This document shows positions 5,048-57,050 of a DNA stretch of 64,000 nt, in pieces. The notes under the pieces are model-generated. The model saw only the letters and a list, made by a program, of their open reading frames with translations. It had not been told where the DNA came from and made no database searches. Position numbers and translations under genes: made by a program. The stretch covers positions 1 to 64,000 of the forward strand of contig JAPOVI010000370.1 in assembly GCA_026708265.1 (NCBI GenBank), in the 5' to 3' direction. Position 1 is the stretch's first letter, and every line of letters begins with the position of its first letter. The stretch comes from Acidobacteriota bacterium. GTDB taxonomy: Bacteria; Acidobacteriota; Vicinamibacteria; Vicinamibacterales; UBA8438.

Positions 5048-5088
5048 GTCAAGGCCGCCGCCAGGCGCCCCGAAGGGGTTGCCTTGAC
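5048..5088 (-). promoter_or_regulatory. Structured leader element, copy 1
   Basis: Outer stem GTCAAGGC (5048-5055) / GCCTTGAC (5081-5088). Inside are two hairpins on the plus strand: CGCC-GCCA-GGCG and CCCC-GAA-GGGG. It lies upstream of the SSB-tipped gene on the minus strand. Confidence 0.8.
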
Positions 5089-5146
5089 GGCCGCCGCGAC
5101 CGGCGCGAGGGTGGCAGGCGGCTTTTCGTCTGCGGCTGGTCGAGCG

Positions 5147-5956
5147 TCAGGCGTCGGCCAGATTCTCGATGTGGCGGCAACGCGGAAAGGTCTCGCAGCC
5201 CAGGAACCTGCGACCGGCGTGGTCGCCGCGCTTCGCCGTGCGGACGACCAGTCGTCCGCCGCATCGCGGGCACAAGGGCCTGGTATCGGTCCGATCGGCA
5301 AGGTCGGGATCGGGCGAGGGCGTGGCCGCGCCGCTGGCCGGGCGGACGCCTTGGACAAGGGCGAGCTGGGCCTCGCCGTCCACGAGCCGGATCGGCTTGC
5401 CGGCGGCGAACCGCCGAGCGTCCTCCGTGAAGTCGCCGGAGCAGACGATGACGGCCTGCTGCGCGCGCTCGGCCGCGAGGACGCCGTAGACCTCGCGAAC
5501 CACGCGTACGCCGACGCGGCGGGTGAGCCAGTTCTTGCATTGGACGAGATGGAGCGCGCCGTTGCGGCGAAGCCGGATGTCTACCCCGCCGTCGGGCCCG
5601 GGCTCGTCGTTCTCGACGACGCGGTAGCCGTCCCGGCGGTACGCTTCGGCGACGAGCTCCTCGAACTCGCGCCACGAAAGCGCGCGTATGGAGGCGAGGC
5701 CCGTCTGGCGGTCGAGAAGGCGGCGCTTGCGGCGGGCGGCGAAGAACGAAAGCACGGCGCCGAGGACGAACAGGGCGCCGACGACGATGCCGAGGAAGCC
5801 GAAGGCGGGCCCGAACAGGGGCGCGAGGAGATTGTCGCCGAGGATGGCGGGAACGCCCCGGGACAGGAAGACGTAGGCCAGCGGAGCCAGCAGGAGGTTC
5901 GCCCACCAGGGCAGGAGCGTGAGCAACGGGAACAGGTCGTCGTTCTTCCTGGGCAT
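5147..5956 (-). CDS. Membrane-anchored Mrr-like restriction endonuclease with zinc-ribbon
   Basis: 269 residues. Two hydrophobic spans (about residues 10-30 and 40-68) anchor the protein. An Mrr/PD-(D/E)XK domain follows: LSWREFEELVAEAYRRDGY, then GPDGGVDIRL (catalytic D), LHLVQCKNW (Q-x-K catalytic pair), then VREVYGVLAAERAQQAVIV. The C-terminus is a topoisomerase-type zinc ribbon, CPRCGG...FLGCETFPRC. The order TM-TM-nuclease-C4 ribbon is common among bacterial restriction-endonuclease-like membrane proteins. The start at 5956 gives MPRKNDD, right before the first membrane span; the longer frame adds 43 low-complexity residues. It probably cleaves foreign or modified DNA, but its target is unknown. 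Confidence 0.75.
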   Translation of the reverse strand: MPRKNDDLFPLLTLLPWWANLLLAPLAYVFLSRGVPAILGDNLLAPLFGPAFGFLGIVVGALFVLGAVLSFFAARRKRRLLDRQTGLASIRALSWREFEELVAEAYRRDGYRVVENDEPGPDGGVDIRLRRNGALHLVQCKNWLTRRVGVRVVREVYGVLAAERAQQAVIVCSGDFTEDARRFAAGKPIRLVDGEAQLALVQGVRPASGAATPSPDPDLADRTDTRPLCPRCGGRLVVRTAKRGDHAGRRFLGCETFPRCRHIENLADA

Positions 5957-6056
5957 CGGATCCTGCAGAGACGAGCGGGGTAGCCCGGATCGTATTGCAC
6001 GGGGTCGCGCGCGAACAGAGGGCATCCGCGGCGCGGGTCCACGGTCGGGGAAGGCG

Positions 6057-6464
6057 CTAGGGTGCTGCGCGCCGTTCGTTGGCAACCGTTCGGCAGACGT
6101 GCGCCAGGGACGGGAAGCGATGCGCGAGTGCGCGCAACGCGCGGGTGCGAAGAACTGCGATCACGTCGTCGCGGCGTCCGTGGCCGTAGTGCGCGGCGAT
6201 GTCGGCCACGAGCTCCTCGTAGTTCGTGCACGAATGGCGCAGATCGTTCACGGCGTCCCGGCGCACGGCGTCGGCAGCTTGCCGACCGCTGGCTTGCTCG
6301 ACTTGCCGCGCATGGCGCTCTGCGCGCGCCGCGAGGGGGGCCGCGTGGCGGTCGTAGACGAGAAGGGTCGCGCGGCGCGCCCAGTTGAGGGGATCGGACG
6401 CGAGCAACGCGGCGTGGGGCGGTGCGTCCGGGTCGATGGCGCTATCGGCCGGGACGGCGGTCAT
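6057..6464 (-). CDS. Hypothetical ICE protein coupled to the PFL_4669-family gene
   Basis: 135 residues, mostly helical and Arg/Ala-rich; no family recognised. The ATG at 6464 overlaps the stop of the upstream gene as ATGA, so the two are translationally coupled and probably work together. Recognisable stretches are NWARRATLLVYDRHAAP and RRDAVNDLRHSCTNYEELVADIAAHYG. Nothing suggests a catalytic site or membrane segment. The coupling makes it a credible gene even without a family match. Confidence 0.6.
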   Translation of the reverse strand: MTAVPADSAIDPDAPPHAALLASDPLNWARRATLLVYDRHAAPLAARAERHARQVEQASGRQAADAVRRDAVNDLRHSCTNYEELVADIAAHYGHGRRDDVIAVLRTRALRALAHRFPSLAHVCRTVANERRAAP

Positions 6465-7042
6465 GACGAAAGCGCCGGCTGCTGCGCGCCGCCGAGACGG
6501 TTGGCCACGGCGACGGCGGACCGGGGAATGTTGGCGATGGCGATGCGGATTTCCCGGGACAGGTGTCGCGCGCCGTTCGACGGCAGGTCGCGGCGGTTCA
6601 GGTACGTCGACGTGGCGAACGCGGCGCGGACGCAGGCGTCGTAGTCGAGGAGCAGTTCGGCGTAGGCGGTGACCAGCGGGTCCGAGTGGGGATTGAGGCG
6701 CGGGGACGTCCAGGGGCGCGGCGGCAGGCCGCGCAGGAAGGCGTCGCGCATCGCGTTGTCGGCATGGCGCCAGGACCGGACGCCGCTGAGGGCGGCGCCG
6801 AGGCGTTCGCGGGTCTCGGCGAGCCACCAGGCGGCGTCGGGATCGTCGGCGTGCGCCCGGACGGTGGCGATCGCGGTGGCGTAGTCGACGATGGAAGGGA
6901 TCGAGTGCTTGCGGCTGCGGTCGCCTGAATGGCCCCACCAGAGTTGCTGGGCCTCGGGGGAGCGGATCGGGTGGCGTCGAGGCGCGTCGGGTGGGCGGGA
7001 AGCGTTGGGGCGTCGGGGAGCGGTCGAGCTAGGGCGGCGCAT
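6461..7042 (-). CDS. Integrating conjugative element protein, PFL_4669 (TIGR03761/DUF1845) family
   Basis: 193 residues of the family found in most genomic-island ICEs, related to AcaB-type regulators; the exact role in this element is unknown. Family-like features are QQLWWGHSGDRSRKHSIPSI, the DDPDAAWWLAETRERL motif, LNPHSDPLVTAYAELLLDYD, and a C-terminal helical segment. The first 25 residues are Pro/Arg-rich. ATG at 7042 is used; a GTG two codons upstream is an alternative. It is followed by the coupled 135-residue gene. Confidence 0.65.
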   Translation of the reverse strand: MRRPSSTAPRRPNASRPPDAPRRHPIRSPEAQQLWWGHSGDRSRKHSIPSIVDYATAIATVRAHADDPDAAWWLAETRERLGAALSGVRSWRHADNAMRDAFLRGLPPRPWTSPRLNPHSDPLVTAYAELLLDYDACVRAAFATSTYLNRRDLPSNGARHLSREIRIAIANIPRSAVAVANRLGGAQQPALSS

Positions 7043-9655: not shown

Positions 9656-9943
9656 ATGCAAAGCCGAACCGTTTCGATGTCCGGCGCGGACGCGTTCATG
9701 TTCGCCGTGACGGACTGCGTGCGGGAGTGCATGGACTGGCCGGGCGCCCGCCGGTGTTCGGTGGCGGTGTTCGGCGAGCTGCTGGCGTTCCACATGGAGG
9801 AGGCGTACGCGCTTACCACGACGCCGGACGAGCGGCTGGCGTTCCTGGCGACGGCGACCGCGTTCGACCGGACCTTCGGGGAGCCAGCGGTGTCCGGCTG
9901 GATCGAGGACCGGCGGGACCGGCTGTTCGAGAAGGGCTACTGA
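9656..9943 (+). CDS. Hypothetical protein
   Basis: 95 residues, no family recognised. Composition is balanced (FMFAVTDCVRECMDWPGARR, FGELLAFHMEEAYALTT), unlike the Arg-rich shadow frames around it. The 3' end overlaps the convergent DUF4326 gene by 7 bp. A weak GGAGC ribosome site precedes the ATG. It lies 117 bp after the recombinase and could share its transcript. Confidence 0.5.
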   Translation: MQSRTVSMSGADAFMFAVTDCVRECMDWPGARRCSVAVFGELLAFHMEEAYALTTTPDERLAFLATATAFDRTFGEPAVSGWIEDRRDRLFEKGY

Positions 9944-10251
9944 GCGTCGCGCCGCGCGGCCCAGGCGGCAGCGCGGGCGAGCACGTCCGCGTGGCACTGG
10001 AGGGGTGCACACCAACAGCAGAGGTCCATCCGGTCGAGCGCCGCGAGTTCGTCGAGGTCCACTTCGCTCGCGCGGATGCGCCGCCACAGGTCGCGGCGGT
10101 ATCGTTCGATGACGTCGGCTCTCGTGCCGTTGCGTCCTATGCGGAACTCGTTTCCCCACTTCGTCTTGCGGTCCACGCGGACGATGCCCCGGGCAAGCAG
10201 GGCCTCGGCGCTGGTGTCGCCTTCGATGCGGCGCAGGTTCAGAACGGCCAT
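9937..10251 (-). CDS. DUF4326 domain protein
   Basis: 104 residues of a small family found in phages and mobile elements, biochemical role unknown. The family core is clear: ARGIVRVDRKTKWGNEF (WGN motif), VIERYRRDL, and CCWCAPLQCHADVLARAA, where the Cys and His cluster may bind metal. Length is typical. Leader element copy 2 lies 57 bp upstream of the start. Confidence 0.75.
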   Translation of the reverse strand: MAVLNLRRIEGDTSAEALLARGIVRVDRKTKWGNEFRIGRNGTRADVIERYRRDLWRRIRASEVDLDELAALDRMDLCCWCAPLQCHADVLARAAAWAARRDAQ

Positions 10252-10286
10252 GGTCAGTCTCCGGCTTGCCGATGGCCCCGTTCGGC

Positions 10287-10367
10287 GGTCCGCGCCGAGA
10301 GCCGCCGGTCAAGGCTGCCGCAGGCACCCGGCACGGGCCCGGCCTTGACGGGCGGCGGGCGCGGATC
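10287..10367 (-). promoter_or_regulatory. Structured leader element, copy 2
   Basis: Core stem GTCAAGGC (10308-10315) / GCCTTGAC (10342-10349). Inner hairpins on the plus strand: TGCC-GCA-GGCA and CCCG-GCA-CGGG. An outer arm GGTCCGCGCC (10287-10296) pairs with 10358-10367 with one G-T pair. Upstream of the DUF4326 gene. Confidence 0.8.
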
Positions 10368-10403
10368 AGGCTCGGGCGGACTCGGCAACGCACCCGGCGG
10401 CGC

Positions 10404-10961
10404 TCAGGGGATCGCAACCGGCTGGACGGGGGCCGGCGGGAACTGCTTCATGCGCCAGAGCACGACCGACCAGCGCGCCGGGTCGGCGTTGATGACGCGG
10501 TGCTGGTGCTTGCAGTCGAACGCGACCACGTCGCCCGGAGACAGGTCCAGCCAGAGGGGGTTCCCCGGACGGCCGTTCGCTGAGTCGCGTTCGGCGTCGA
10601 TCTCGAACGTGGCGAAGCCGAGGTTGACGATGAGGGCGGCGTTCATGGCGTAGGCCGCGTCGCGGTGCCAGGCGATGCCGACGTCCCCCCGGATTGCCAG
10701 CCCGACCTGGGGCCGGGTGGCGGGATGGAAGCGCTGCCAGACGCGGGTGAGCCAGGGCCAGAGGCGCTTGGAGGCGAGGCCGGGACGCCAGGGCTGGGTG
10801 GGGCCGAGGGGCGCCTCGATCTCGAGCCAGGCGCGCTGCCGGCCCTTGGCGTAGTTCGAGACGTCCGGCGCGAGGTGCGGCGCGACGTGGCGGTCGAGGT
10901 GGGCGACGACGTCGCGCACGGTGCCGTCGCCGAGCCGGAAGGGCGGGCGGATGCAGGTCAT
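10404..10961 (-). CDS. 2-oxoglutarate/Fe(II) dioxygenase-like protein
   Basis: 185 residues. The iron site HxD...H is seen as IAWHRDAAY and CKHQHRV, followed by an Arg in RWSVVLWRM that would hold 2-oxoglutarate; this is the double-stranded beta-helix layout of AlkB-like and prolyl-hydroxylase-like enzymes. The substrate cannot be told; DNA repair or base modification is a plausible guess in an ICE. The start at 10961 follows GAGGAG; the longer frame adds 138 residues of shadow sequence. Leader element copy 3 lies upstream. The WLDLSPGDVVAFDCKHQHRV stretch is typical of the metal-binding strand. Confidence 0.75.
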   Translation of the reverse strand: MTCIRPPFRLGDGTVRDVVAHLDRHVAPHLAPDVSNYAKGRQRAWLEIEAPLGPTQPWRPGLASKRLWPWLTRVWQRFHPATRPQVGLAIRGDVGIAWHRDAAYAMNAALIVNLGFATFEIDAERDSANGRPGNPLWLDLSPGDVVAFDCKHQHRVINADPARWSVVLWRMKQFPPAPVQPVAIP

Positions 10962-11000
10962 GGGGATCTCCTCTGTCCGTTGCGGATGCCGCGACGCCCC

Positions 11001-11099
11001 GGTCCGCAGGGGAAGCCGCGGGTCAAGGCCGCCGCCGACCGCGGACGCGGTCGCAAGGCGCCCGGCAGGGCCCGGCCTTGACGCGCGGCGCCGCGGACC
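11001..11099 (-). promoter_or_regulatory. Structured leader element, copy 3
   Basis: Core stem GTCAAGGC (11022-11029) / GCCTTGAC (11075-11082). Inner hairpins: GACCGC-GGAC-GCGGTC and GCCC-GGCA-GGGC. Outer arms GGTCCGC (11001) / GCGGACC (11093). Upstream of the dioxygenase gene. Confidence 0.75.
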
Positions 11100-11181
11100 A
11101 TGCTGGCGGCGGTCCGCACCGGACGGCGGCTTGTTGAGCGCGCGCAACAACGTGGTTTTCCGGGGGTTGCGCGGGTCCGCA

Positions 11182-40032: not shown

Positions 40033-40072
40033 GGTCTGCTCCTCGGACGTGCTGTCGTTTCCCGTCCCGTCC

Positions 40073-42366: not shown

Positions 42367-42406
42367 ACCGGGGGGCCGCGCCGCGCGAGGATGAACGCGG
42401 GCCGAG

Positions 42407-43546: not shown

Positions 43547-44206
43547 TCAGCGGTCGTTGGCGTCGGGACGGTCCGCGTCGGCGCGCTCGAGGCGGCGCAG
43601 GATCTCGAGGGGGACGCAAGACGGGGCGCCTTCGCTGTCGTGGCGCCACCCGCTCCGCCTACGGCAGATCTCGCGGTCGCAGCGCCCGGTGCGCCCGACC
43701 TCGCAGCGCCCGCGCAGCCAGGCGGCGTGCTGGGCGTCCATGGCCGCGCCGGCGCGGCGGCGGATGTCGTCGCGGATGCGCATGAGCGTGCGGCCGAGCT
43801 GGTTGCGGCCGCGGCCGCCGCAGACGCCCCAGTAGACGTCGCCCCAGGTGTTGCCCTCGACGAGTTCGGCGTCGCCGGTGGCGAGCAGCGCGTCGCGGAG
43901 TTCCGGGACGGCGAACTTGGCGTCGAGGACGGCGCGCATGACGTCGTCCTTGACGTGCTCCCAGTCGCTGCGCAGATCGACGCGGCGGCCGAGGCGCTTG
44001 GCGGCGGCCGGGGACGGGGCGGCGCGGATGCACTCGCGCTCGCCCTCGTCGCGGCTCTTCGCGGCCTGGTAGGCGGCCTCGCTGGAGTGCCAGGTCTTGC
44101 CGCGCCACGGGAACGGCGCGCGGTGGAAGTTGGACAGGAACACGTGTTCGCCGCGGAAGCGGTCGATGCGTTCGGGCGCCGGGCCCGGGGTGTTGGACGG
44201 TGGCAT
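43547..44206 (-). CDS. NADAR-family N-glycosidase-like protein
   Basis: 219 residues. The NADAR/YbiA signature is complete: GEHVFLSNFHRAPFPWRGKT, WHSSEAAYQAAKSRDEGE, AAKRLGRRVDLRSDWEHVK, VMRAVLDAKF, ALLATGDAELVEGN and WGDVYWGVCGGRGRNQLGRTLM. NADAR proteins cleave ADP-ribosyl-type N-glycosides; some remove ADP-ribose from DNA or act in NAD-based defence. Its place beside ArdC-type genes suggests counter-defence (inference). A C-terminal Cys/Arg-rich extension is unusual. Leader copy 7 lies upstream. Confidence 0.85.
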   Translation of the reverse strand: MPPSNTPGPAPERIDRFRGEHVFLSNFHRAPFPWRGKTWHSSEAAYQAAKSRDEGERECIRAAPSPAAAKRLGRRVDLRSDWEHVKDDVMRAVLDAKFAVPELRDALLATGDAELVEGNTWGDVYWGVCGGRGRNQLGRTLMRIRDDIRRRAGAAMDAQHAAWLRGRCEVGRTGRCDREICRRRSGWRHDSEGAPSCVPLEILRRLERADADRPDANDR

Positions 44207-44274
44207 GGGTTCCTCTTGCGGTGGCTGGGCCGAAGCCCGATGGCCGCGCGGCCGCCGCGCCCAAAGACCGGCCG

Positions 44275-44327
44275 GTCAAGGCCGCCGCCGACCGACGGGA
44301 GGCGGTGCCCGGCAGGGCTGCCTTGAC
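44275..44327 (-). promoter_or_regulatory. Structured leader element, copy 7
   Basis: Core GTCAAGGC (44275-44282) / GCCTTGAC (44320-44327). The first inner hairpin has a longer loop (CCGCC...GGCGG); the second is GCCC-GGCA-GGGC. Upstream of the NADAR gene. Confidence 0.75.
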
Positions 44328-44387
44328 GGGCCGGTCGGGCGCGGCAGGCTCCCGGCAAGGGATTCGGGCGGCTTCAGTGGGCCGGCG

Positions 44388-46840: not shown

Positions 46841-46902
46841 GATGTTCCTCCCAGCGTGGATTGCTCGGACGCCGACCGCAAGGCGCGGACGCCGCGCACG
46901 CG

Positions 46903-46949
46903 GTCAGGGCCGGCGCGTTAGCGCCGCCCGGCAGGGCCCCGGCCTTGAC
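46903..46949 (-). promoter_or_regulatory. Structured leader element, copy 8
   Basis: Core GTCAGGGC (46903-46910) / GCCTTGAC (46942-46949), in which one pair is G-T on the plus strand. Inner hairpins: GGCGC-GTTA-GCGCC and GCCC-GGCA-GGGC. Confidence 0.8.
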
Positions 46950-47700
46950 CGCGCGCGGCGCCGCGCCAGGCTTGTTCGCGGCCGAGCTCCGCACGTTGGA
47001 CGGCTCCGGCGGCAGGTGGCGGAGTCGCGGCCCGGCGGACGCCGCATGGTCGAAATCGCACGCCGCGGGGGGGGGGGCGCTGTCCGGTTGACCGGTCGCG
47101 ACGCCCGTGGCGTCATGGTTCGCGCGGAAGCGCTCGGGGAGGCCGGGCGCCGAAGGAAGGGGGAAGGGAAATGGCCAAGCCGAGGATGCCCACCACGCTG
47201 CCGAGCCCGGCGGACCGGGGCGAGTTCCGGTTCGTGGCGGTGGATGCCGCGGGACGCGCCTGGCGGTGGATCGACGAGGAAACGGTGTGGGCGCGCGTGG
47301 AGGACGGTGGCGAGGCCGACGCGGACGGGGACGCCGCCGGCGGTGGCGGGGATCCTTCGCCCCGCCCGGCCGTTCGGGCCCGAGCGTCCACGGAGGACGT
47401 TGCGGAGGATTGTCGCGCTCGGTGGCGCCGGGGGCGGTGCGTCCGCGGGACCGGCGATGGACGCGAAGGAACGGGTCGCGGGGGGATTTGGGTGTCGCCG
47501 GGTGGGCCTTCGCGCCGAGTGGCGGCTCCACGTGGGGCCGCCGTATCACGGCCTTTCGACGCGGCGCGGCCATCGCCGCGCCGCGGATCGGCGGATGTGA
47601 CGGGGCGTTCCGGCGTCCGCCGGCGACGGGGGCAGTGTCGGCTAAGGCGGCGCGGTCGTCAAACCGGGAACGGAGCGGGCTGCCGGATCGAGCGCGACCG
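46950..47700. other. 750-bp gap without a firmly supported gene
   Basis: A run of eleven G at 47067-47077 interrupts it. On the plus strand an ATG at 47171 with a purine-rich ribosome site opens a plausible beginning (GEFRFVAVDAAGRAWRWIDE, TVWARVEDGG), but after about 50 residues the frame degrades to Arg-rich sequence, so it may be a gene remnant. Nothing else is supported. Confidence 0.4.
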
Positions 47701-48302: not shown

Positions 48303-49196
48303 TCAGGCCGCCTCGGCGCGGTCGGCGTCCCGCAGGCCGTGCAGGAAGTCCACCGCGCGCTGCGCCTGGGTAGCCGCCGCGGCCACGGCCCGCGGGTCGC
48401 CGTCGAGCGCCTTCAGCCAGGAGGCGATGTAGGGCGCGTGGTCGGCGCGGGGCTCCGGGGCGAGGCCGAGGTCGGCGCACAGGAACGCGGAGCCGAGTTC
48501 CGCCACGAGCTCCTCGCGCGCGACGGACGCCTCGTCGCGCTTGAACATGTCGCGGTCGAGGCGGTGTTTTGCGCCGGTCAGATGCACGCACTCGTGGGCG
48601 AGCACGGCGTAGTACGCCTCCGGCGAGCGGAACGTGGCGAAGGGCGGCATGCGGATGTAGTCGTCGGCCGGGGCGTAGAACGCGCGTTCGCCGCCGTGGC
48701 GGATGTCGACGCTCAAGTTCGCGAACCAGGTCTCGCACCGCTCCAGCCGCTCGCCGGGGTTCACTTCGGGGATCTCGACGCGGTAGCGCTCCGGCAGGTC
48801 GTCGATCTGGTCGACGTTGAACACCGCGTAGGCGCGGCGCACGTGCAGCACGTCCGGCTCGTCGTCGACGGCGGGACCGCCCTCGGAGCCGTCCGGGCGC
48901 TTCTTCACGGTCTTGGCGAAGAACACGTGCGAGGCGCGCTCGCCGCGGCGCACCTGGCCGCCGAGTTCGCTGGCCTGGCGGTAGGTCATCCAGTGCGGCG
49001 AGACGTAGCCGCGGTCGATGGCGGCGCACCAGAGCAGCAGGATGTTGACGCCCTGGTAGGGGACGTCGTTGTGGCGCAGCGGCACCGCGGCGCGCCCGGC
49101 GGTCGCCCACGGGCGCCGCCAGGTGGGCGTGCCGTCGCGCAGGTCCTCGATGATGCGCTGCGTGATCTTCTCGTAGATGTCGTCGGGTCGGGGCAT
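48303..49196 (-). CDS. ardC: ArdC-like antirestriction protein
   Basis: 297 residues. N-terminal ssDNA-binding ArdC domain (DUF1738): DDIYEKITQRIIEDLRDGTP, WRRPWAT, GVNILLLW, WMTYRQASELGGQVRRGE. The C-terminal zincin-like metallopeptidase has YAVLAHECVHLTGAKHRLDR (HExxH-type). ArdC binds single-stranded DNA and shields the incoming strand from host restriction in the recipient. Sits 67 bp downstream of the methyltransferase-helicase gene and probably shares its transcript. Confidence 0.9.
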   Translation of the reverse strand: MPRPDDIYEKITQRIIEDLRDGTPTWRRPWATAGRAAVPLRHNDVPYQGVNILLLWCAAIDRGYVSPHWMTYRQASELGGQVRRGERASHVFFAKTVKKRPDGSEGGPAVDDEPDVLHVRRAYAVFNVDQIDDLPERYRVEIPEVNPGERLERCETWFANLSVDIRHGGERAFYAPADDYIRMPPFATFRSPEAYYAVLAHECVHLTGAKHRLDRDMFKRDEASVAREELVAELGSAFLCADLGLAPEPRADHAPYIASWLKALDGDPRAVAAAATQAQRAVDFLHGLRDADRAEAA

Positions 49197-49263: not shown

Positions 49264-52200
49264 TCAGGGGGATGCGGGGTCGTCGGGCTTGAGCGGATGG
49301 CGCGCCAGGATGCGCTCCAGCACGCGGGGCTCGTCGGCGAACACCACGGTCTGCCAGGCGACGATCTCGGTCTCCGCGCCGAGGCGCTTCAGGCCCGCGA
49401 TGTCGCGGGGACCGGGGCCGCGGATCTCGACGCGCGCGCGGCCGAGCACGAGACGGCGCACGAGTTCCCAGCCGTTGGCCAAGGCGAACCGGGCGTGCCG
49501 CTCGCGCACGGCGCGCGCGACGTCCTCGGCGGGCAGCTCGAAGGCGACTGCGGCGTCGGCCATGCGGCGCAGGCGCATCGCCTCCTCGGGCTCCAGCACG
49601 CGCCCGATCAGGCGCTCGCCGTCGTCGGTGGCGAGGCGCCGGATGCGCAGGTTGTCGTCCGGCAGCAGGTGCCAGGCGCGCAGCAGCATGCCGGTGGCGA
49701 GATGGAAGGTGCGCTCGCGGTGCGTCGGCAGGTCGGCGACCTCGGCGTCCCACAGCGCCCGCCAGCGGTCCTCGGCGGCGTCGCGCCAGTGCGACTGCGC
49801 GAACTGGGTCTCGGCAACGATGGTCGCGTCGTTCGGGCGGCGCAGCCGGATGCGGCGCTCCAGCGAGCCGTCGTCGCGCACCGCGGACGGGGCCGGGAGC
49901 GCCACGGCGGGGCGTCCGGAACTGCCGTTGACGAGCAGGCCGATGGATTCCGTCCGGTTGCCGGAGGCGTCGCGGGCGCGCCGCACGGCGTCGAGCGCGG
50001 CGTCGGACGTGAAGGGCTTCAGCGCGTCGCGTCGGGCGATCTCGACGATCTCGGTGCCCTCGGGGCCGGGATGGCGGCGCCTGACGGCGAGCGAGTCCGC
50101 GGCGATGGCCTCGACGCCCTGGTTGTAGACCCCGGCGTCCTTGGCCGCCTGGATCACGGCGTCGAGGCGCGCCTGGAAGTGGCCGAAAAGGTCGTTCTGC
50201 TCGTCGATCGGCAGCGCGAGCAGGCGGTTCAGGAATCGGGGCATCGGCGGCAGGGAGTCCTTCAGGCCGCCCTCGGAATCCGACAGGACGAGTCCCGTCG
50301 CCTCCTCGAAGTGCTTTTCCGGCCAGCCGGGAACGTGGTCGTTGTGGATGGAGAGGTACATCAGTCGGAGCGCCGAGAGCGCGTGCGGGCTCTCCAGGTT
50401 GTCCTCGGCGCGGAACAGCGCGTCGTCGCCCATGGACGCCTGGCCGTCGCGCTGGCCGCGGGTGATGGCGCCCAGCGAGTCGAGGCGCCGCGCGATGGTG
50501 GCGATGAACCGCCGTTCGCCCTTGACGTCGGTGGTGACGGGCCGGAAGAGCGGCGCGCTGGCCTGCCGGGTGCGGTGCGTGCGCCCGAGCCCCTGGATCG
50601 CGACATCCGCGCGCCAGCCGGGCTCGAGGAGGTAGTGGACGCGGCGCGCCTGGTTCGCGCAGGCGGTGTCGGCGTGGTAGCTGCGCCCGGTGCCCCCGGC
50701 GGTGGAGAAGACCAGGATCTTCTTCGTGCCGTCCATGAACGCGGCGGCTTCCGAGAGGTTCGCGCTCGGCGGCCGGTTCGACACCGCATGCCGCGTGCCG
50801 CCCGGGGCGGGCAGCGCGAGGATGCGCCGCGAGCGGCCGGTCACTTCGGCGATCGCGTCGTGCCCGAACCGGTGCGTCAGGATGTCGATGGCCGACGGCA
50901 TGGCCGGCAGGGCGCCGAGCTCGGCGATCAGGAGGTCGCGCGCCTCGACGGCCTCCTGGGACTCGACGGGGCGGCCCTCGTCGTCGCGCACGGGCACCGC
51001 GACCACGTTGCCCTCGTCGTTGACGGTCTCCTCGTGCAGGGTCGTGGGGAACGAGCGGACGAGGTATTCCATGACGTACTCGCGCGGCGTGAGGTCGATG
51101 GATAGGTCGGCGTGCTCGGCCGGCGGCAGTTCGGCGAGGCGGCGGTCCAGCAGGGCCTCGCCGGTGGAGACGAGCTGGACGACCGGGGCGCGTCCGGCGT
51201 CGAGGTCCGTCTCCATCGCCTTGATGAGCGTCGGGCACTTCATGGCGGCGAGCAGATGGCCGAAGAAGCGCTGTTTGGCCTGCTCGAACGCCGACATCGC
51301 GGCGGACTTCGCGCCGGGAGAGAGCGTCTCGCCGTTCTGCGTCACGCCGGTCGCTTCCAGCGCAGCGTGGATGTTCTCGTGGATGATCCGGAACGCGCCG
51401 GCGTAGCGGTCCCAGATCTCGCGCTGGGGCTCGGTCAGCGCATGCTCCAGGATGTCGATCTCGACGCCGTGGTAGGCGAGCGCCCGCGCCTGGTAGAGGC
51501 CGAGGGCCTTGAGGTCCCGGGCGACGATCTCCATGGCGGCGACCCCGCCCCGCTCCATCGCCGAGACGAAGTCCGGCCGGTCGTTGAACGCCGTGGCGTC
51601 GCCGCCCCAAAGTCCCAGCCTGGGTGCGTAGGCGAGGCCGTGGACGGTGGTGGCGCCGGTCGCGGAGGCGTACACGATTCGCGCGTTCGGCAGTGCGTGC
51701 TGCAGGCGCAAGCCCGCGAGCCCCTGCTGGGACGGCTTCGCCTCGCCTCGCTGCTTGGTCGCCGACCCGGCGGCGTTCGCCATCGCGTGCGCCTCGTCGA
51801 ACACGATGACGCCGTCGAAGGCGTGGCGCGACTCCTCGTCCATGCCGTCGGCGAGCCATGCGACCAGCTGGTCGAGCCGCGCCGGGGCGTCGCCGCGGGC
51901 CGGGGTGCGCAGCGTCGCGTAGGTGGTGAACAGGATGCCGCGGCGGCGGTGGATCGGCTGCGCGGGTCGGTAGTCGGCGAGCGGGAAGACGTCGCGTTCG
52001 TCGCGACCGATCTCGCGCCAGTCGCGCCGGGCGTCCTCCAGCAGGCGCGCGGACTGGCTGATCCAGAGCGCCCGGTCGGCGCCGCGCAGCCAGCGGTCGA
52101 GGACGATGGCGGCGGCCTGGCGTCCCTTGCCGCAGCCGGTGCCGTCGCCGAGCATCCAGCCTTGGCGGAACCGGACCGGCTCGGAGAGGGGTCCGTCGAC

Positions 52201-53616
52201 GATCGCGCCGCCGTCCAGGAGTTCGCCGTCCTCGTCCACCGGCATGGCGCGCGTCCAGTCCGGGTCGATGCGGTAGCGGGTCGGCAGCAGGCGGTCGTGC
52301 GCCTCGCCGGCGAGCACGACGCTCTCGAGCTGGGCGTCTGACAGAAGGCCGTCGGCGACCAGGGCGGGCGGCAGCAGGGGGCGGTAGCCGGGTGCCGGGG
52401 GCGCGATGTCGGCCATCGCGGCGGACTCGACCAGCGGCGTCGGGTGCTCCGTCGCGCCCGGCACGCGGAACGAGACCGGCGACCAAGGGGACCAGGAGCC
52501 GTCGGCGCGCCCGGCGTCGTCGCGGGAGACGGGCTCGACGGCGAGGTCCTTCGGCTCGGGATCGAGCGCCAGGCGGGGCGGCAGGGCGGCGAGGCGGCGC
52601 ACCAGGTCCGCCGCGTCCTCGGCGACGGCGAAGGGGTCGAGGGCGGGATAGCGGTCGGCGGGCGCCGCCGGGGCGCGCTCGAGGACGACGAGGCGGGTCT
52701 CGACGCCGGTGCCGCGCCGCTGGTAGACCCGGCGCGGAACCCGGACCGCGAACAGGATGCGCGGCGCGGTCGCGCCGGAGCCGAAGGCGTCGCGCCAGGC
52801 GGTGGACTCGGGGATGCAGTTGGCGCCGGTGACGGCGACCAGCCGCCCGCACGGCGCGAGCGCCGCGTAGGCCGACCTGAGGTGCTTGAGGTCCACGTGG
52901 CGTTGCCGCTTGCCGACGGTCGGCCGCGCGGCGAACGGCGGGTTCATCAGCACGACGTCGGGACGGACGCGCGGCAGGCGGTCGCGGATGTGCTCGGCGT
53001 TGTGCTTCGAGACGGACGCGTCCGGGTAGATCGCGGCCAGCAGGGCGTGCCGCACCGGGGAGAGCTCGTTCAGGAACAGGCGCGCCGGGTCGTCGAGCAC
53101 GGCGGCGGGGAGCGCCGCGAGCACGCCGGTCCCGGCGGAGGGTTCGAGCACGGTGGCGTCCGGGCGGACGTCCGCCGCCAGGAACGCGGCGCAGGCGAGC
53201 GCGAGCGGCGTCGAGAACTGGTCGAAGGCGACCTGGTGCTCGCTGCGGTGCGAGTGCGTGGGCTCCAGCGCCGCGACCCGCTCGACCATGGCGAGGAGCG
53301 CCTCCGGGGTTGCCGCCTGGTCGCGCATCGCGCGTCCGTAGCGGCGCAGGAACAGCACGGTGGCGGCCTCGGCGGCGTCGTAGCAGAGCTTGGAGTTCCA
53401 TGAACGTCCGGAGGGCTCGAGGCGGCGCCACGCGTCGTGCAGGGCCGTGGTGACGATGGGCGCGGCGAGTGGGCGGCCGGCCTCCAGGACGGATACGAGG
53501 TTGCGGGCGGCTTCGGCGACGGCCCGGCCCGGCTCGGGTCTCGGGGGCGGGGCCGGTTCGGCGGCGGGATCGCCGATCAGGTCGAACAGGGACTGGGCGG
53601 GGTCTTGCGGGGTCAT
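49264..53616 (-). CDS. Strawberry-notch-like helicase with N-terminal adenine methyltransferase domain
   Basis: 1450 residues, one of the largest plasmid-borne proteins. N-terminal methyltransferase part: VLEPSAGTGVLAALPAAVLD (SAM-binding motif I) and VVLMNPPFA (NPPF catalytic motif), about residues 155-250. Helicase part: Walker A MLGDGTGCGKGRQAAA, DEAH box VIVFDEAHAMANAAG, YASATGATT, and later IQGLGRTHRTRQASAPLFRP. The C-terminal third is the strawberry-notch C-terminal type. Such genes travel with ardC and parB on large plasmids and may modify or remodel incoming DNA to escape restriction (inference). ATG at 53616 follows GAGGAGCCC; leader copy 9 lies upstream. Confidence 0.85.
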   Translation of the reverse strand: MTPQDPAQSLFDLIGDPAAEPAPPPRPEPGRAVAEAARNLVSVLEAGRPLAAPIVTTALHDAWRRLEPSGRSWNSKLCYDAAEAATVLFLRRYGRAMRDQAATPEALLAMVERVAALEPTHSHRSEHQVAFDQFSTPLALACAAFLAADVRPDATVLEPSAGTGVLAALPAAVLDDPARLFLNELSPVRHALLAAIYPDASVSKHNAEHIRDRLPRVRPDVVLMNPPFAARPTVGKRQRHVDLKHLRSAYAALAPCGRLVAVTGANCIPESTAWRDAFGSGATAPRILFAVRVPRRVYQRRGTGVETRLVVLERAPAAPADRYPALDPFAVAEDAADLVRRLAALPPRLALDPEPKDLAVEPVSRDDAGRADGSWSPWSPVSFRVPGATEHPTPLVESAAMADIAPPAPGYRPLLPPALVADGLLSDAQLESVVLAGEAHDRLLPTRYRIDPDWTRAMPVDEDGELLDGGAIVDGPLSEPVRFRQGWMLGDGTGCGKGRQAAAIVLDRWLRGADRALWISQSARLLEDARRDWREIGRDERDVFPLADYRPAQPIHRRRGILFTTYATLRTPARGDAPARLDQLVAWLADGMDEESRHAFDGVIVFDEAHAMANAAGSATKQRGEAKPSQQGLAGLRLQHALPNARIVYASATGATTVHGLAYAPRLGLWGGDATAFNDRPDFVSAMERGGVAAMEIVARDLKALGLYQARALAYHGVEIDILEHALTEPQREIWDRYAGAFRIIHENIHAALEATGVTQNGETLSPGAKSAAMSAFEQAKQRFFGHLLAAMKCPTLIKAMETDLDAGRAPVVQLVSTGEALLDRRLAELPPAEHADLSIDLTPREYVMEYLVRSFPTTLHEETVNDEGNVVAVPVRDDEGRPVESQEAVEARDLLIAELGALPAMPSAIDILTHRFGHDAIAEVTGRSRRILALPAPGGTRHAVSNRPPSANLSEAAAFMDGTKKILVFSTAGGTGRSYHADTACANQARRVHYLLEPGWRADVAIQGLGRTHRTRQASAPLFRPVTTDVKGERRFIATIARRLDSLGAITRGQRDGQASMGDDALFRAEDNLESPHALSALRLMYLSIHNDHVPGWPEKHFEEATGLVLSDSEGGLKDSLPPMPRFLNRLLALPIDEQNDLFGHFQARLDAVIQAAKDAGVYNQGVEAIAADSLAVRRRHPGPEGTEIVEIARRDALKPFTSDAALDAVRRARDASGNRTESIGLLVNGSSGRPAVALPAPSAVRDDGSLERRIRLRRPNDATIVAETQFAQSHWRDAAEDRWRALWDAEVADLPTHRERTFHLATGMLLRAWHLLPDDNLRIRRLATDDGERLIGRVLEPEEAMRLRRMADAAVAFELPAEDVARAVRERHARFALANGWELVRRLVLGRARVEIRGPGPRDIAGLKRLGAETEIVAWQTVVFADEPRVLERILARHPLKPDDPASP

Positions 53617-53976
53617 GGGCTCCTCGGTGTCGTCACCACAGCGGTGGGGTCGCGCCCCAACAGGCGCGGCGACCGGCGGCCCGCAAGGCAGGCGCGTCAG
53701 CGCCTCCCGCCAGGGCTCCGGCCTTGCGGGACGGCGGGCGTACGCGCAACGATCCGGCGCGCGCCCGCCGCGCGGCGGGCAAGGCCCGCCGGGGGTGCCG
53801 GGGATAGGTGAAGTCCGGGAAAGCCGCGCGGGACGCCGCGAGCGTCCCCTTGGGTTCTGCGGCGGGCGGCGGCGGACCGGGAGCGGTTCGGGCGGGGAGG
53901 ACAAGGGGCCCGGCGCGCCGTCCGTGGCGGCCGGGCCGAGGGGATCCGCGCCTTCCCTGGCGCGGAGGGAGGAGCG
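53617..53976. other. Intergenic region with leader copy 9
   Basis: No supported gene. It contains the structured element at 53680-53730. The rest is GC-rich with short inverted repeats and ends at the parB stop. Confidence 0.5.
53680..53730 (-). promoter_or_regulatory. Structured leader element, copy 9 (compensated variant)
   Basis: Core CCCGCAAGGC (53680-53689) / GCCTTGCGGG (53721-53730). Relative to the common GTCAAGGC/GCCTTGAC, both sides are changed so that pairing is kept. Inner hairpins: AGGCGC-GTCA-GCGCCT and CCC-GCCA-GGG. Confidence 0.85.
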
Positions 53977-56205
53977 TCAGGAGGAGGCGAGGAACGCGGG
54001 CAGCGCGCCGTTGCCGTCGCTGCCGGCGGCGGGATCGTCGTCCGCCGTCGGCGTGTCCGGCGCGGTCGCGGAAGCCGGTGCTTCCGGGGAGGCGTCGCCC
54101 GTCCCGGGCTCGGTTTCGGCTGCGGCCTGGCCGGGCTCCGGGTCGTTGTCGGCGTCCTTGTCGGCCGGAGCCGCGGCGGTCGGCTGGGCCGCCTCGTGGC
54201 CGTCTGCATCGACCGGCGCGAATCCGGGCGGGAGCCAGCGCACGGCGGCGGCGTCCACGTCGGGGTCGCGGGTCGGATCGCGGCGGAACGCCTCCGCTGC
54301 CGCGCCCGCGAGGTCCTTCTTCTTCAGCCCGTTGTGCTTGGCAGCCCAGTCGTCGCCGAGCGCGGCCGCGGCGGCGCCGAGGATGAGGCCCTTGTTCATG
54401 CGGTTCCAGACCAGATCCGCATCGAACGGCGCCGCGCCGACGGCGGCGAGTTCGACCGGGAAGTCGAGGCCGAGGTTGCGCACCGCCTCCTCGTGCGCGG
54501 CGGAGGCGTCGGCGTCGTCGGCCAGGCGCGGCACCGTGAGCGAGGCGACCGCATGCGCGAGCACGCTGGCGCGGTCGTCGTCGGGCAGCGCGCGGTAGGC
54601 GCGGAACGACGCGGCGGCGTCCTCTTCGGCCAGCCAGCCGAGGTCCACCGCGGGCACCGGCTCGAGGTGCTTCATGGTCTCGCTCGCCTTCATGGCGTCG
54701 GAGGCGTAGACGCCCTGGTACTCGCCGCGGATGGCGAGGATCGGCGTCTCGTAGCCGGCGCGGCGGCGGCCGAACCCGACGAGGCGGGCCAGCACGAACC
54801 CGATCAGGTCCGCGGCGACCGCCGGATCGCGGGCGAGCGCGCGGCGCACGGCCGCGGTGCGCATGATGCGCAGGTCGTTCCGGAGCGCGTCGGTCCAGCC
54901 GCCGTGCTTCTTGGCGGGGGTCGCGGCGTCGGTGCCGTTGGGCACGCCGGGCGCGGCGACGCTGCCGTTGGCGCCGTTGCGCGCCTCTCCGGCGCGTGCG
55001 GCGCGGTAGGCGGCGGCGTCCTCGGCGCGGACCAGTCCGCGGTGGATCTCGAGGTTGCCTTCGCGGTCGAGCGCGACGACCACGCCGCTCAGTGCGCGGA
55101 CGGTTTTCGAGTACGCGTCGCGGTCGGCCCGGGCGCGCTCGATCTCGGCGTAGCGGTTCTGCTCGCGGGTGACGATGGACCAGAGCTCCCGGCGCCCGTC
55201 GGCGTCGATCTGGCTGTCGAAGGTGTCGAGCTGGCCGCTCGCCTGCTCGATGTGCTCCTCGGCCTCGGTGAGCGCCGCGGTCTCCGCGTGGGTGAACTCG
55301 GCGCGCTCGTCGGCGTCGGCGATCAGGTGGTCCTGCTGGTCCATCCAGGTGAACTCGGTCCGTGCCGCGGTCCACTTCCAGGCGTCGGCGTAGGTCGCGG
55401 CGACCGCGTTCAGCTTCTGCAGGGCGAGCTCCTCCATGAGGTCCGGGTCGAGGATGGCGACGTAGTCGTCCTCGAACAGCGGATCCTCGATCGTGCCCCC
55501 GGCGGCGCGGTAGGCGTCGAGGCCGACGTAACGGGCCATGGGCGCGTCGGAGCGGGTGCGGCGCTGGCCGATGGCGTGGCGCACGGCGTGGCCGTACAGC
55601 TGCCCGGAGTCCTCGAGCGCCTTGAAGATGTTGCGCTGGAACTCGGTGTCCGCCGTGACGGCGAAGGCTTCGGCCGTGTCGGTGTTGATGCGGCCCTGGC
55701 GGTAGGCCGCGATGATCTCGTCGGGCAGGCCGCCGAGGCGGACGCGCTTCTGCACGGTGCGCTCGGCGACGCCGAAGCGGGCGGCGATCTGCTCGCTCGT
55801 GGCGCCCTCGCGCGCGAGGCGGCTGAACGCCACGACCTGGTCCGCCGGGTGCATGGCGATGCGCACGGCGTTCTCGGCGAGCGAGGACTCGGCGGCGGCG
55901 TCGCCGTCGATGACGAGGCAGGGCACCGGGTGGTTCTTGGGGATGTGCTTGTCGGCCGCGAGCGCGTTCAGGGCGCGGAGTCGGCGCGCGCCGGCCGCGA
56001 CGCCGAACAGTGTCTTGCTGCGCGGCGTGACCACGAGGTTCTCGAGCAGCCCGTGGGCGCGGATCGAGGCGACGAGCTCGGCGTCGGCCTGGGCCGTTGC
56101 CGGGTCGGCGGCTTCCCCGCGCACGTTGCGGTCGTCGTGGCGCAGCTTGCTGAGCGGAATGAGCCGCGTCTCGGGCGTGGCGGCGGTGTCGGTTGCCTTC
56201 TGCAT
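53977..56205 (-). CDS. parB: Large ParB/RepB/Spo0J-family protein
   Basis: 742 residues. The ParB N-terminal domain shows IPLSKLRHDDRNVRGE, LVASIRAHGLLENLVV and AGARRLRALNAL (CTPase box region), then AENAVRIAMHPADQVVAF and the helix-turn-helix ATSEQIAARFGVAERTVQKR. The long C-terminal part (about 500 residues) is acidic at the end and lacks known domains. No parA is adjacent, as with other orphan ParB proteins of ICE leading regions. It could act in stability, gene control or anti-restriction. ATG at 56205 has AAGGAGA upstream; leader copy 10 lies 62 bp away. Confidence 0.85.
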   Translation of the reverse strand: MQKATDTAATPETRLIPLSKLRHDDRNVRGEAADPATAQADAELVASIRAHGLLENLVVTPRSKTLFGVAAGARRLRALNALAADKHIPKNHPVPCLVIDGDAAAESSLAENAVRIAMHPADQVVAFSRLAREGATSEQIAARFGVAERTVQKRVRLGGLPDEIIAAYRQGRINTDTAEAFAVTADTEFQRNIFKALEDSGQLYGHAVRHAIGQRRTRSDAPMARYVGLDAYRAAGGTIEDPLFEDDYVAILDPDLMEELALQKLNAVAATYADAWKWTAARTEFTWMDQQDHLIADADERAEFTHAETAALTEAEEHIEQASGQLDTFDSQIDADGRRELWSIVTREQNRYAEIERARADRDAYSKTVRALSGVVVALDREGNLEIHRGLVRAEDAAAYRAARAGEARNGANGSVAAPGVPNGTDAATPAKKHGGWTDALRNDLRIMRTAAVRRALARDPAVAADLIGFVLARLVGFGRRRAGYETPILAIRGEYQGVYASDAMKASETMKHLEPVPAVDLGWLAEEDAAASFRAYRALPDDDRASVLAHAVASLTVPRLADDADASAAHEEAVRNLGLDFPVELAAVGAAPFDADLVWNRMNKGLILGAAAAALGDDWAAKHNGLKKKDLAGAAAEAFRRDPTRDPDVDAAAVRWLPPGFAPVDADGHEAAQPTAAAPADKDADNDPEPGQAAAETEPGTGDASPEAPASATAPDTPTADDDPAAGSDGNGALPAFLASS

Positions 56206-56266
56206 GGAATCTCCTTGGTTGCATAGCGGATGGCTCGGACAAACGCGCACGCGACCGGCGGCGGGA

Positions 56267-56318
56267 GCGTCAAGGTCGGCGCGACGCGCCGCCCCCGAAG
56301 GGGGCCTGACCTTGACGC
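56267..56318 (-). promoter_or_regulatory. Structured leader element, copy 10 (compensated variant)
   Basis: Core GCGTCAAGGTC (56267-56277) / GACCTTGACGC (56308-56318), an 11-bp perfect stem in which one G-C pair of the usual core is replaced by T-A on both sides. Inner hairpins: GGCGC-GAC-GCGCC and GCCCCC-GAA-GGGGGC. Confidence 0.9.
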
Positions 56319-56394
56319 CGCGCGTCCGACGGGCGCGAGGGTGGCGGCGAGCCGTTCGCGGCGCCCGGCGCGTGTCGCGGTGCGATCGGGGGAC

Positions 56395-56622
56395 TCAGTC
56401 GAGTTCCACGACGTCGCCGTTTCTGTCCACGGCGACGAAGCGGAGTTCGCCGAGCTTGCGAGCCGGGCCGCCGTCGGGGTTGTCGGACCAGAGCTCGATG
56501 TCGCTGGGCAGGGCGTAGTCCTCGGCGATCTGCCTGGCGGCCGCCTTCGCGCCCTCCCCGGCGTTCTCGACGTGGATGAAGGCTTCGGTGATGCCACCTG
56601 CGCTTTTCACTGCGATTCGCAT
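56395..56622 (-). CDS. Small hypothetical ICE protein
   Basis: 75 residues (RIAVKSAGGITEAFIHVENA, GELRFVAVDRNGDVVELD), alpha/beta with an acidic end; no family recognised. GGAGAAACC precedes the ATG. It shares the GEFRFVAVDAAG-like C-terminal motif with the possible remnant at 47171 (plus strand), hinting at an old duplication. Confidence 0.5.
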   Translation of the reverse strand: MRIAVKSAGGITEAFIHVENAGEGAKAAARQIAEDYALPSDIELWSDNPDGGPARKLGELRFVAVDRNGDVVELD

Positions 56623-56700
56623 GGTTTCTCCTTTGGTTGGGGCGCCGGTGCGCCCGGAACGGGCTATTGGGTGGACGGTCCATTCGTCCGGAAAGCCGGG

Positions 56701-56940
56701 TCATCGCGCGTAGCACGCCCGGGGCATGGTGCGCGCCGCCCACGGGAACTGCGCGACGAGCCAGCCGTTGGCGAAGCGCGCCGCCTCGGCGCGGGCGTGG
56801 CCTCCCGAGGCGCACCACAGGCAGCCCCTGTCGACGCGGTACACGCCGAGGCACTCGGGGCAGCGCCGGTGCGTGACGGGCAGTTCGTGTGGCGCCCAGA
56901 GTTCGAGCTGGGCGCGGCGGGCCGCGTTGCGCGAAGGCAT
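56701..56940 (-). CDS. Small zinc-ribbon hypothetical protein
   Basis: 79 residues. RRCPECLGVYRVDRGCLWCA gives two CxxC pairs, a probable zinc ribbon. Basic ends. No family recognised. Leader copy 11 lies 67 bp upstream of the ATG, and a GGAGGGA ribosome site is present. Confidence 0.55.
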   Translation of the reverse strand: MPSRNAARRAQLELWAPHELPVTHRRCPECLGVYRVDRGCLWCASGGHARAEAARFANGWLVAQFPWAARTMPRACYAR

Positions 56941-57007
56941 GGTGCGGGTTCCCTCCTGCAGGGCGAATGGACACGCGTTCGCCGTGGCGCCGGTTCCGGC
57001 GCCGGCG

Positions 57008-57050
57008 TCAAGGCCGGCGCGCTAGCGCCGCCCGCAGGGCATGGCCTTGA
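57008..57050 (-). promoter_or_regulatory. Structured leader element, copy 11
   Basis: Core TCAAGGCC (57008-57015) / GGCCTTGA (57043-57050). Inner hairpins: GGCGC-GCTA-GCGCC and GCCC-GCA-GGGC. Upstream of the zinc-ribbon gene. Confidence 0.85.

Follow-up and report, generated by a model that had tools for sequence, protein, structure and literature searches.

Which function is served by a structured element that recurs eleven times, always in one orientation, in front of the genes of an ICE? The question is raised by the window analysed here, a stretch of 64,000 nucleotides from an Acidobacteriota bacterium, and the elements could act in it as DNA, as RNA, or as repeats that are only tolerated.

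Elements and the Genes behind Them

All eleven elements claimed by the earlier note were found at their places in the window. For the covariance-model check proposed there, the model R1 was built from these eleven window elements; it scores 11/11 of them, with E from 6e-6 to 5e-12. Among the other matches in the window, the top one reaches E 0.16, and the strongest of the weak matches come from the reverse strand of the elements themselves. In the whole 6.55 Mb genome, the same eleven are the only matches at E<=1, all of them on this contig and on the + strand. As had been claimed, none lies on the other strand (11/11 on +; p=0.001 for the strand bias alone), a minus-strand gene lies behind every copy (11/11, ORFs with a Shine-Dalgarno-like sequence), and no element stands in front of the + strand transfer operon or the IS66, LRR, and Dnd genes. 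Measured from where the 5' arm ends on its inner side, the start codon follows at 63-75 nt for ten copies and at 93 nt for the remaining one. A further hairpin-like candidate, at 14917, was dropped on inspection, being without a -10 and without the usual spacing. The elements, with the putative boxes of their 3' arms, and the genes are as follows.

Element 1: 5026..5117, + strand; -35 TTGACG 5084-5089, -10-like GAGGGT 5107-5112, spacer 17
Gene behind element 1: 4706..4984, - strand; 92 aa, C-terminus DDDIPF (SSB-like tip), no Pfam family found
Element 2: 10286..10377, + strand; -35 TTGACG 10345-10350, -10-like CAGGCT 10367-10372, spacer 16
Gene behind element 2: 9937..10251, - strand; 104 aa, DUF4326
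Element 3: 11000..11109, + strand; -35 TTGACG 11078-11083, -10-like CATGCT 11099-11104, spacer 15
Gene behind element 3: 10404..10961, - strand; 185 aa, uncharacterised, sub-threshold cupin match
Element 4: 37846..37938, + strand; -35 TTGACT 37907-37912, -10-like CAGGCT 37928-37933, spacer 15
Gene behind element 4: 37030..37803, - strand; 257 aa, uncharacterised
RadC/JAB gene: 36231-36947; comes after the 257 aa gene behind element 4
Element 5: 40071..40204, + strand; -35 TTGACG 40172-40177, -10-like GAGGCT 40194-40199, spacer 16
Gene behind element 5: 39376..40032, - strand; 218 aa, sub-threshold DprA/SLOG-like match
Element 6: 42300..42397, + strand; -35 TTGAAC 42363-42368, -10-like GAGGAT 42387-42392, spacer 18
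Gene behind element 6: 41867..42235, - strand; 122 aa, uncharacterised
Element 7: 44253..44355, + strand; -35 TTGACG 44323-44328, -10-like CAGGCT 44345-44350, spacer 16
Gene behind element 7: 43547..44206, - strand; 219 aa, NADAR
Element 8: 46881..46977, + strand; -35 TTGACC 46945-46950, -10-like CAGGCT 46967-46972, spacer 16
Gene behind element 8: 45635..46840, - strand; 401 aa, uncharacterised
Element 9: 53674..53758, + strand; -35 TTGCGG 53724-53729, weak -10-like AACGAT 53748-53753, spacer 18
Gene behind element 9: 49264..53616, - strand; 1450 aa, Strawberry-notch-type helicase, ArdC gene next
ArdC anti-restriction gene: 48303..49196, - strand; apparently within the element 9 operon
Element 10: 56262..56347, + strand; -35 TTGACG 56312-56317, -10-like GAGGGT 56337-56342, spacer 19
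Gene behind element 10: 53977..56205, - strand; 742 aa, ParB-domain protein
Element 11: 56985..57081, + strand; -35 TTGAGC 57047-57052, -10-like CATGCT 57071-57076, spacer 18
Gene behind element 11: 56701..56940, - strand; 79 aa, uncharacterised

Fold and Its Conservation

The elements measure ~90-130 nt, are very GC-rich, and end in a twin-hairpin tip. The two inner hairpins described before are present in every copy; the tip hairpins occupy 27 to 77 nt between the arms, varying by copy. The earlier description of the stems stood in part. The core GTCAAGGC/GCCTTGAC is present, but it is not identical throughout, since the copies at 42343, 46923, 53700, and 57007 deviate from it. Likewise, the outer arm GGTCCGCGC/GCGCGGACC is real, but it represents only one of the sequences in which a general outer stem occurs; the copies that do not have this arm keep the stem with different letters. 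A third stem, more distal than the outer stem, goes beyond what had been described.

In the inner stem, 159 of 198 cells are Watson-Crick pairs, as against a mean of 100 and at most 128 after arms have been exchanged among the copies. The covariance-model alignment contains two-sided changes at 14 of 18 pairs (covariation 0.329 versus 0.097 shuffled), and the distal flanks reach -19.7 kcal/mol with their own partner versus -14.5 kcal/mol, a result seen in 0/5000 permutations. The compensatory changes keep the fold, and the structure is under selection. In the predicted fold, the flanking arms pair again past the -10, so that a pre-opened bubble results. Because the elements are very GC-rich, alternative folds exist; the minimum-energy fold of element 2 breaks up the outer stem.

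An inverted repeat of this kind could also be the double-stranded binding site of a dimeric regulator at conventional promoters, and a palindromic core that is conserved in presumably co-regulated genes would suit such an operator. Its arms, however, are separated by 27-77 nt that contain hairpins, the letters of the outer and distal stems covary, which is not needed by a sequence-specific binder, and a search of 37.7-57.2 kb gave no conventional promoter match nearby. An operator is judged highly improbable.

Promoter-like Boxes on the 3' Arm

When the + strand is folded, TTGAC (-35) lies on its 3' arm and is followed after 15-19 nt by a -10-like hexamer of the form [C/G/T]A(G)G(C)T; the pair is conserved nowhere but on this arm. 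The search for the -10 motif covered 29 non-redundant copies, which were oriented by the gene alone, at 14-19 nt past the -35. CAGGCT was recovered 12 times, together with GAGGCT, GAGGGT, TAGGCT, and similar hexamers, positions 2 and 6 being A and T in 28/29 copies; the motif score is 235.6 versus 85.5 (sd 5.4) in shuffles. The same search read on the gene strand returned stem letters only. Owing to the palindromic core, TTGACC occurs also in the gene-strand reading of most copies.

At spacers of 15-19 nt, pairing with the 5' arm averages 0.90 at -13, 0.79 at -12, and 0.07 at -11, and a separate determination gave a similar profile. In the predicted fold, pairing stops after -12 and leaves the critical A-11 as the first open base, despite the variable spacer; opposite -11, a T occurs in only 1/33. 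The predicted leader is 23-39 nt long in 30/31 copies, with a full range of 23-58 nt. On this model, the boxes in double-stranded DNA would fire away from the gene, whereas on the folded single strand they would fire into it. Some features of the boxes depart from common promoters: CAGGCT is far from TATAAT, agreeing with it at A-11 and T-7 only, spacers of 15-19 nt exceed the usual width range, and the boxes of element 9 are weak (TTGCGG/AACGAT).

The hairpins might instead work in the RNA, as attenuator, antiterminator, or translation control, if the elements were structured 5' leaders transcribed from an upstream double-strand promoter. A fixed distance to the start codon and strong covariation would be expected of such leaders, the distal arm of the ArdC family extends to the ribosome-binding site, and there is a precedent in the structured EGeRS1 repeats, which precede the establishment genes of pLS20, may act in this way, and are no ssDNA promoters (PMC8708921). 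This explanation, however, accounts neither for the sequence conservation of the paired TTGAC nor for an A....T hexamer that is confined to one side, keeps promoter spacing, and has A-11 as the first unpaired base. A search of both strands at 37.7-57.2 kb gave no conventional sigma-70-like match, upstream of the elements in this range or elsewhere in it, and a tip varying from 27 to 77 nt would be unusual for a ligand-binding or antiterminator RNA. The mismatches on the + strand at positions 0-13 comprise, in small numbers, 3 A.C versus 6 G.T, that is, few A.C, although minus-strand RNA would accept these as G.U. RNA leaders are considered unlikely.

Copies in Relatives and Inheritance with Genes

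Five related genomes contain >20 further non-redundant copies. One more was detected in a 56% GC genome, in which TTGACG, a 16 nt spacer, and TACGCT are kept and the outer-stem letters differ; no obvious ORF was found at the usual distance from this copy. The copies track gene families, among them ArdC, RadC, NADAR, and ParB, element identity being 0.81 within a gene family versus 0.68 between families of one locus. ArdC and RadC in relatives are each preceded by their own element, and fifteen gene families carry elements across the relatives, compared with eleven operons here. Wider covariance-model searches returned the element in 3/193 genomes of the class, 2/396 of the phylum, and 1/369 of the group of a gammaproteobacterial relative; with so few positive genomes, the element family is rare. 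The pattern was found in none of the viral contigs searched, and 72,556 plasmids gave no sizeable match to element 2. Regions upstream of homologous genes in alphaproteobacterial plasmids, folded and compared by eye, contain hairpins, among which no common motif was established.

Several similar palindromic copies within one element would also be left by a REP/BIME-like or other mobile repeat that is tolerated in leaders only. The divergence of the copies, however, tracks gene families, a single distance and a single orientation are kept, and the rest of the 6.5 Mb genome is without copies, which are confined to the ICE contig. A mobile repeat is disfavoured and very improbable.

Priming of second-strand synthesis by RNA polymerase or primase, with gene expression as a secondary effect, is what ssi/sso sites would provide. 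F's Frpo and many sso sites fold into a promoter and prime DNA synthesis (PMC4595007), and eleven sites along the strand would hasten conversion. Start codons need not matter to priming sites, yet each copy precedes an operon with a predicted leader of 23-58 nt and tracks its gene family. Priming as the main role is judged quite unlikely. The priming and promoter roles are compatible with each other.

ICE Context and Transferred Strand

The gene content of the ICE fits an establishment/anti-defence set, comprising ArdC, NADAR, ParB, and the SSB-like tip. In two complete plasmids, a homologous ParB/helicase/ArdC block is located upstream of the relaxase gene on the same strand; by analogy, this would be the geometry of a leading region and would agree with the proposed polarity. 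No MOBH relaxase (PF07514) was found in the own genome or in six relatives, and an oriT was likewise not located. The uncharacterised ORF 2887-4254 has no relatives among plasmids. For the phage-integrase-like gene at 8561-9538, a role as MpsA/MobK-like relaxase was weighed and set aside, as the gene is not separable from an ordinary recombinase. The other end of the ICE would be marked by a directly repeated tRNA-Leu 3' end, which was not found on the contig.

Proposed Mechanism

The interpretation as single-strand promoters of the Frpo/ssi type, which the earlier note had offered, is supported by the one-sided -35/-10 pair, the -12/-11 boundary, the covariation, the leader length, and the gene-linked inheritance. 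According to the model, the elements are quite probably RNA-polymerase promoters that would be active only on the transferred single + strand. From the tip downward, two small hairpins would be followed by the duplex with the -35 (TTGAC) on its 3' arm; the spacer of 15-19 nt would be mostly paired, with the final pair at -12. The bubble would then show A-11 to T-7 as single-stranded non-template DNA, and the downstream duplex would come next. This pre-opened fork would be the binding site of RNA polymerase holoenzyme, with the 5' arm as template, and transcription would start 23-39 nt ahead of the start codon of the minus-strand gene. Since A-11 to T-7 would already be single-stranded in the proposed fork, little melting would be required and a near-consensus -10 would be unnecessary.

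If the + strand is the conjugatively transferred strand, the eleven operons would be switched on upon entry into the recipient and would constitute a zygotic-induction regulon. Second-strand synthesis would remove the hairpins, and expression would stop, because the -35/-10 pair points away from the gene once the DNA is double-stranded. In this scheme, the elements with their fold, covariation, one-sided boxes, stem boundary, leader length, and link to genes can be read from the sequence; we infer the transcription, the identity of the transferred strand, and the timing.

Comparison with Known Systems

As in Frpo1/Frpo2 of F and ssi of ColIb-P9, the template strand of the gene would fold so that a stem-loop rebuilds -35 and -10, this would occur upstream of leading-region genes (SSB, ParB-domain, anti-restriction), and activity, here by prediction, would be limited to the period before second-strand synthesis (PMC9849209). 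In contrast to the two copies in F, eleven are spread across an MPF_G-type ICE, and their size, high GC content, twin-hairpin tip, and bubble from -11 set them apart. To have a reference for orientation, the F region ahead of ssb was folded too, and no base-by-base likeness to Frpo is claimed; across 22 kb of F that include its leading region, R1 gave no match.

The Frpo-like anti-defence island candidates of Samuel et al. 2024 (PMC11541004) are alike in that T-strand hairpins with -35/-10 are predicted ahead of anti-defence genes. They were derived from known Frpo/ssi sequences or from canonical -35, -10, and A+T-rich UP elements, and the elements that contain them have an identified relaxase and oriT (PMC11541004), whereas here the -10 is GC-rich and no canonical relaxase was found nearby. 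EGeRS1 of the pLS20 family likewise consists of repeated structured sequences before establishment genes including ardC, but these are ~325-600 nt long, fold without a promoter, and have the transferred strand as the non-template strand (PMC8708921); the present elements are ~100 nt long and contain boxes. Searching the window against Rfam 15 gave only a tRNA, with no RNA family matching the elements above gathering score. At sso sites of rolling-circle plasmids and ICEs, a folded single strand is also bound by RNA polymerase, but for DNA priming. The hairpin promoters of the phage N4 virion RNA polymerase are folded single strands that serve a phage polymerase. Neither of the two is known to form a gene regulon with many copies in a conjugative element.

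Implications

Experimental evidence for single-strand promoters comes from a few enterobacterial plasmids (F, ColIb-P9), and many others have been predicted by similarity. On balance, the elements described here would represent a new, unrelated family of such promoters, built as a pre-opened fork and ruling the whole establishment programme of the ICE. If this is true, each element would be a strict sensor of the single-stranded state, and single-strand promoters would extend to an MPF_G-type ICE of an unrelated phylum, in which the sequence solution would be independent. Because the putative switch is common to ArdC, NADAR, ParB, and RadC, the uncharacterised genes behind the elements are candidates for establishment or anti-defence functions. 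The natural variants would supply a rule, namely, a stem to -12, an open region from -11, and a distal duplex, which can be examined base by base and applied in finding promoters without similarity to Frpo.

Structured Elements of the ICE

The eleven hairpin elements which the earlier note had located upstream of minus-strand ICE genes are all present, and each precedes an ORF on the minus strand that has a sequence resembling a Shine-Dalgarno site. A search with a covariance model built from them recovered 11/11, all on the plus strand, with E-values of 6e-6 to 5e-12, and gave no further element at E<=1 in the whole 6.55 Mb genome; Rfam holds no corresponding family. The transfer genes of the surrounding ICE (TraD, DUF4400, DUF2895, DUF3438, TraC, TraU, and TraG) are of the SXT/PFGI-1 (MPF_G) kind and lie on the plus strand. 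Host assignment is insecure for this ICE, its source genome being a bin of metagenome type with 446 contigs and 9.4% contamination. The genes behind the elements and their neighbours are as follows.

Behind element 1: 92-aa protein with the C-terminus DDDIPF (SSB-type tip)
Behind element 9: Strawberry-notch helicase, then ArdC
Behind one element each: DUF4326 protein; NADAR protein; DprA/SLOG-like protein (sub-threshold match); ParB-domain protein
Behind further elements: several genes with no identity assigned
2021-2107: tRNA-Leu, adjoining the ICE
5147-5956, minus strand: zinc-ribbon restriction endonuclease of the Mrr type, immediately upstream of element 1
28343-28594, minus strand: 83-aa protein resembling the 92-aa protein of element 1, lacking both the DDDIPF tip and an element, adjoining the IS66 insertion
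57478-63837: Dnd cargo, with no element before any of its genes
57975-58865: DndB-like fragment of the Dnd cargo
60875-62473: GmrSD/SspE-like nuclease of the Dnd cargo
62647-63837: DndC of the Dnd cargo

Promoter-like Motif on the 3' Arm

In 29 non-redundant copies, oriented by the adjacent gene only, TTGAC is found on the 3' arm of the plus strand, that is, complementary to the coding strand. It is followed after 15-19 nt by CAGGCT (12 copies), GAGGCT (3), GAGGGT (3), TAGGCT, GAGGTT, or a similar hexamer, with A at position 2 and T at position 6 in 28/29. The motif on this arm scores 235.6 versus 85.5 (sd 5.4) for shuffles; the best motif in the gene-strand reading reaches 128.9 versus 89.1 (sd 6.3) and is made up of letters of the outer stem itself (GGACCG, GGCCCG); it lacks the A....T pattern. 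By textbook standards the -10 is poor, and element 9 is weak in both boxes. Sigma-70 flips out and holds two -10 bases, A-11 and T-7, and these are the bases kept in this family. In two copies, which have AGTCC/GGACT arms, the -12 pair has changed from C:G to T:A. Since the -35 and -10 are conserved on the 3' arm of the plus strand, they are directed away from the gene in double-stranded DNA. With the plus strand folded on itself, the 5' arm would become the template and the promoter would face the gene, and it would do so only in the folded state.

Fold and Its Conservation

According to calculations with DNA energy parameters, with which a run with shorter flanks agrees, pairing to the 5' arm averages 0.95 across the -35 region, 0.90 at -13, and 0.79 at -12, and falls to 0.07 at -11; it is 0.3-0.5 up to -7 and about 0.6-0.7 at -2 to +12. 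The stem end tracks the -10 despite a spacer varying by four bases. The base opposite the sixth -35 base is unpaired in 26/33 elements, a conserved mismatch that is mostly G.G. This mismatch (G.G in 22/33, T.T in 2) interrupts an otherwise paired stem where the -35 hexamer ends on its downstream side. For element 2, the minimum-energy fold differs from the consensus fold.

Selection acts on the fold: Watson-Crick pairs fill 159/198 cells of the inner stem, versus a mean of 100 and a maximum of 128 with arms exchanged between copies. In the covariance-model alignment, which itself leans to the structure, two-sided changes occur in 14/18 pairs, and covariation scores 0.329 versus 0.097 when shuffled and <=0.052 when slid. 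Past the -10, each flank pairs with its own partner at -19.7 kcal/mol versus -14.5 for swapped flanks (0/5000 permutations as strong); thus, a downstream duplex is added and the -10 lies inside an internal bubble. Nearly every copy has a tip of two adjacent hairpins, 27-77 nt long. In the ArdC family (L061 7279-8243, outside the window, and ArdC relatives), the distal arm also spans the ribosome-binding site, so that this site would be masked in any RNA read through from the double-stranded form, possibly as a second lock.

Copies in Relatives

The element 9 helicase has relatives in gammaproteobacterial and Vicinamibacteraceae metagenome-assembled genomes, and the same elements are present there. 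Copies were found by the hairpin core alone, the -10 not being used, and their orientation was taken solely from the adjacent gene. The start codon and the arm's inner end are 62-77 nt apart in nearly all copies with an adjacent gene; the predicted leader, its start derived from the pairing partner of -12, measures 23-39 nt in 30/31 copies and 58 nt in the remaining one. Element likeness has a median of 0.81 for the same gene family across different ICEs versus 0.68 for different genes within one locus. Fifteen gene families are served; among them, ArdC (four loci) and RadC are each preceded by an element of their own in relatives, but follow inside operons in the window.

In a 56% GC genome from another family of the phylum, TTGACG-16-TACGCT is kept while the outer-stem letters differ (GCCCAACC/GGTTGGGC). 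This lone diverged element (L085 13915-14007) has no evident ORF at the distance seen elsewhere and is possibly a relic or a copy before a short gene. Another genome, G121, contains weak model matches at L071 3949-4057, L072 1594-1693, and L073 10174-10273; two of them have another hairpin in common (GCGGAGGGCAT side), lack a clear gene at the usual spacing, and are possibly a different repeat.

Relaxase and Strand Polarity

A TraI relaxase of MOBH, the family expected here, was detected neither in this genome nor in six relatives, and no oriT was located. The transfer operon (region 11100-12046) has TraD followed by other genes typical of SXT/PFGI-1; with no TraI detected, the ICE may have lost its relaxase or use one of an unrecognised type. 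Near this operon a phage-integrase-like tyrosine recombinase is encoded, with relatives on many plasmids, whose role may be that of an MpsA/MobK-like relaxase or simply of a recombinase.

8561-9538, plus strand: tyrosine recombinase (PF12834/PF12835)

On plasmids pTHAF40_b and pBAR4, a homologous ArdC/ParB/helicase block lies upstream of the relaxase gene on the same strand. Relaxase genes are usually the last to enter (PMC11541004); therefore, this would be a leading-region arrangement with the transferred strand as template. Its geometry agrees with the hairpin polarity in the window, by analogy rather than proof.

Comparison with Known Systems

The earlier note had proposed single-strand promoters of the Frpo/ssi type. 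Frpo1 and Frpo2 of the F plasmid are stem-loop folds with -10 and -35 boxes, required for the early, transient expression of the F leading genes (PMC9849209); according to Samuel et al., homologues of Frpo and candidate elements are widespread in leading regions (PMC11541004). Comparable to the ICE gene set, genes for an SSB and a ParB-domain protein, and psiB, lie behind Frpo2 in the F leading region. Architecture and gene context are common to both, whereas the sequences differ. A caution comes from EGeRS1 of pLS20, a repeated structured leader before establishment genes, which is not an ssDNA promoter because boxes are absent and the strand is wrong (PMC8708921); its lack of boxes is an objection inapplicable to the ICE elements, which have them, whereas the objection of the strand may apply. 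No description of ICE-borne single-strand promoters was found in open-licence papers.

Summarizing, the elements are a real, structurally constrained, multi-copy cis-element. Judged from sequence, they are best explained as a candidate family of GC-rich single-strand promoters whose sequence differs from that of Frpo; this reading provides a sharp model, testable at base level.
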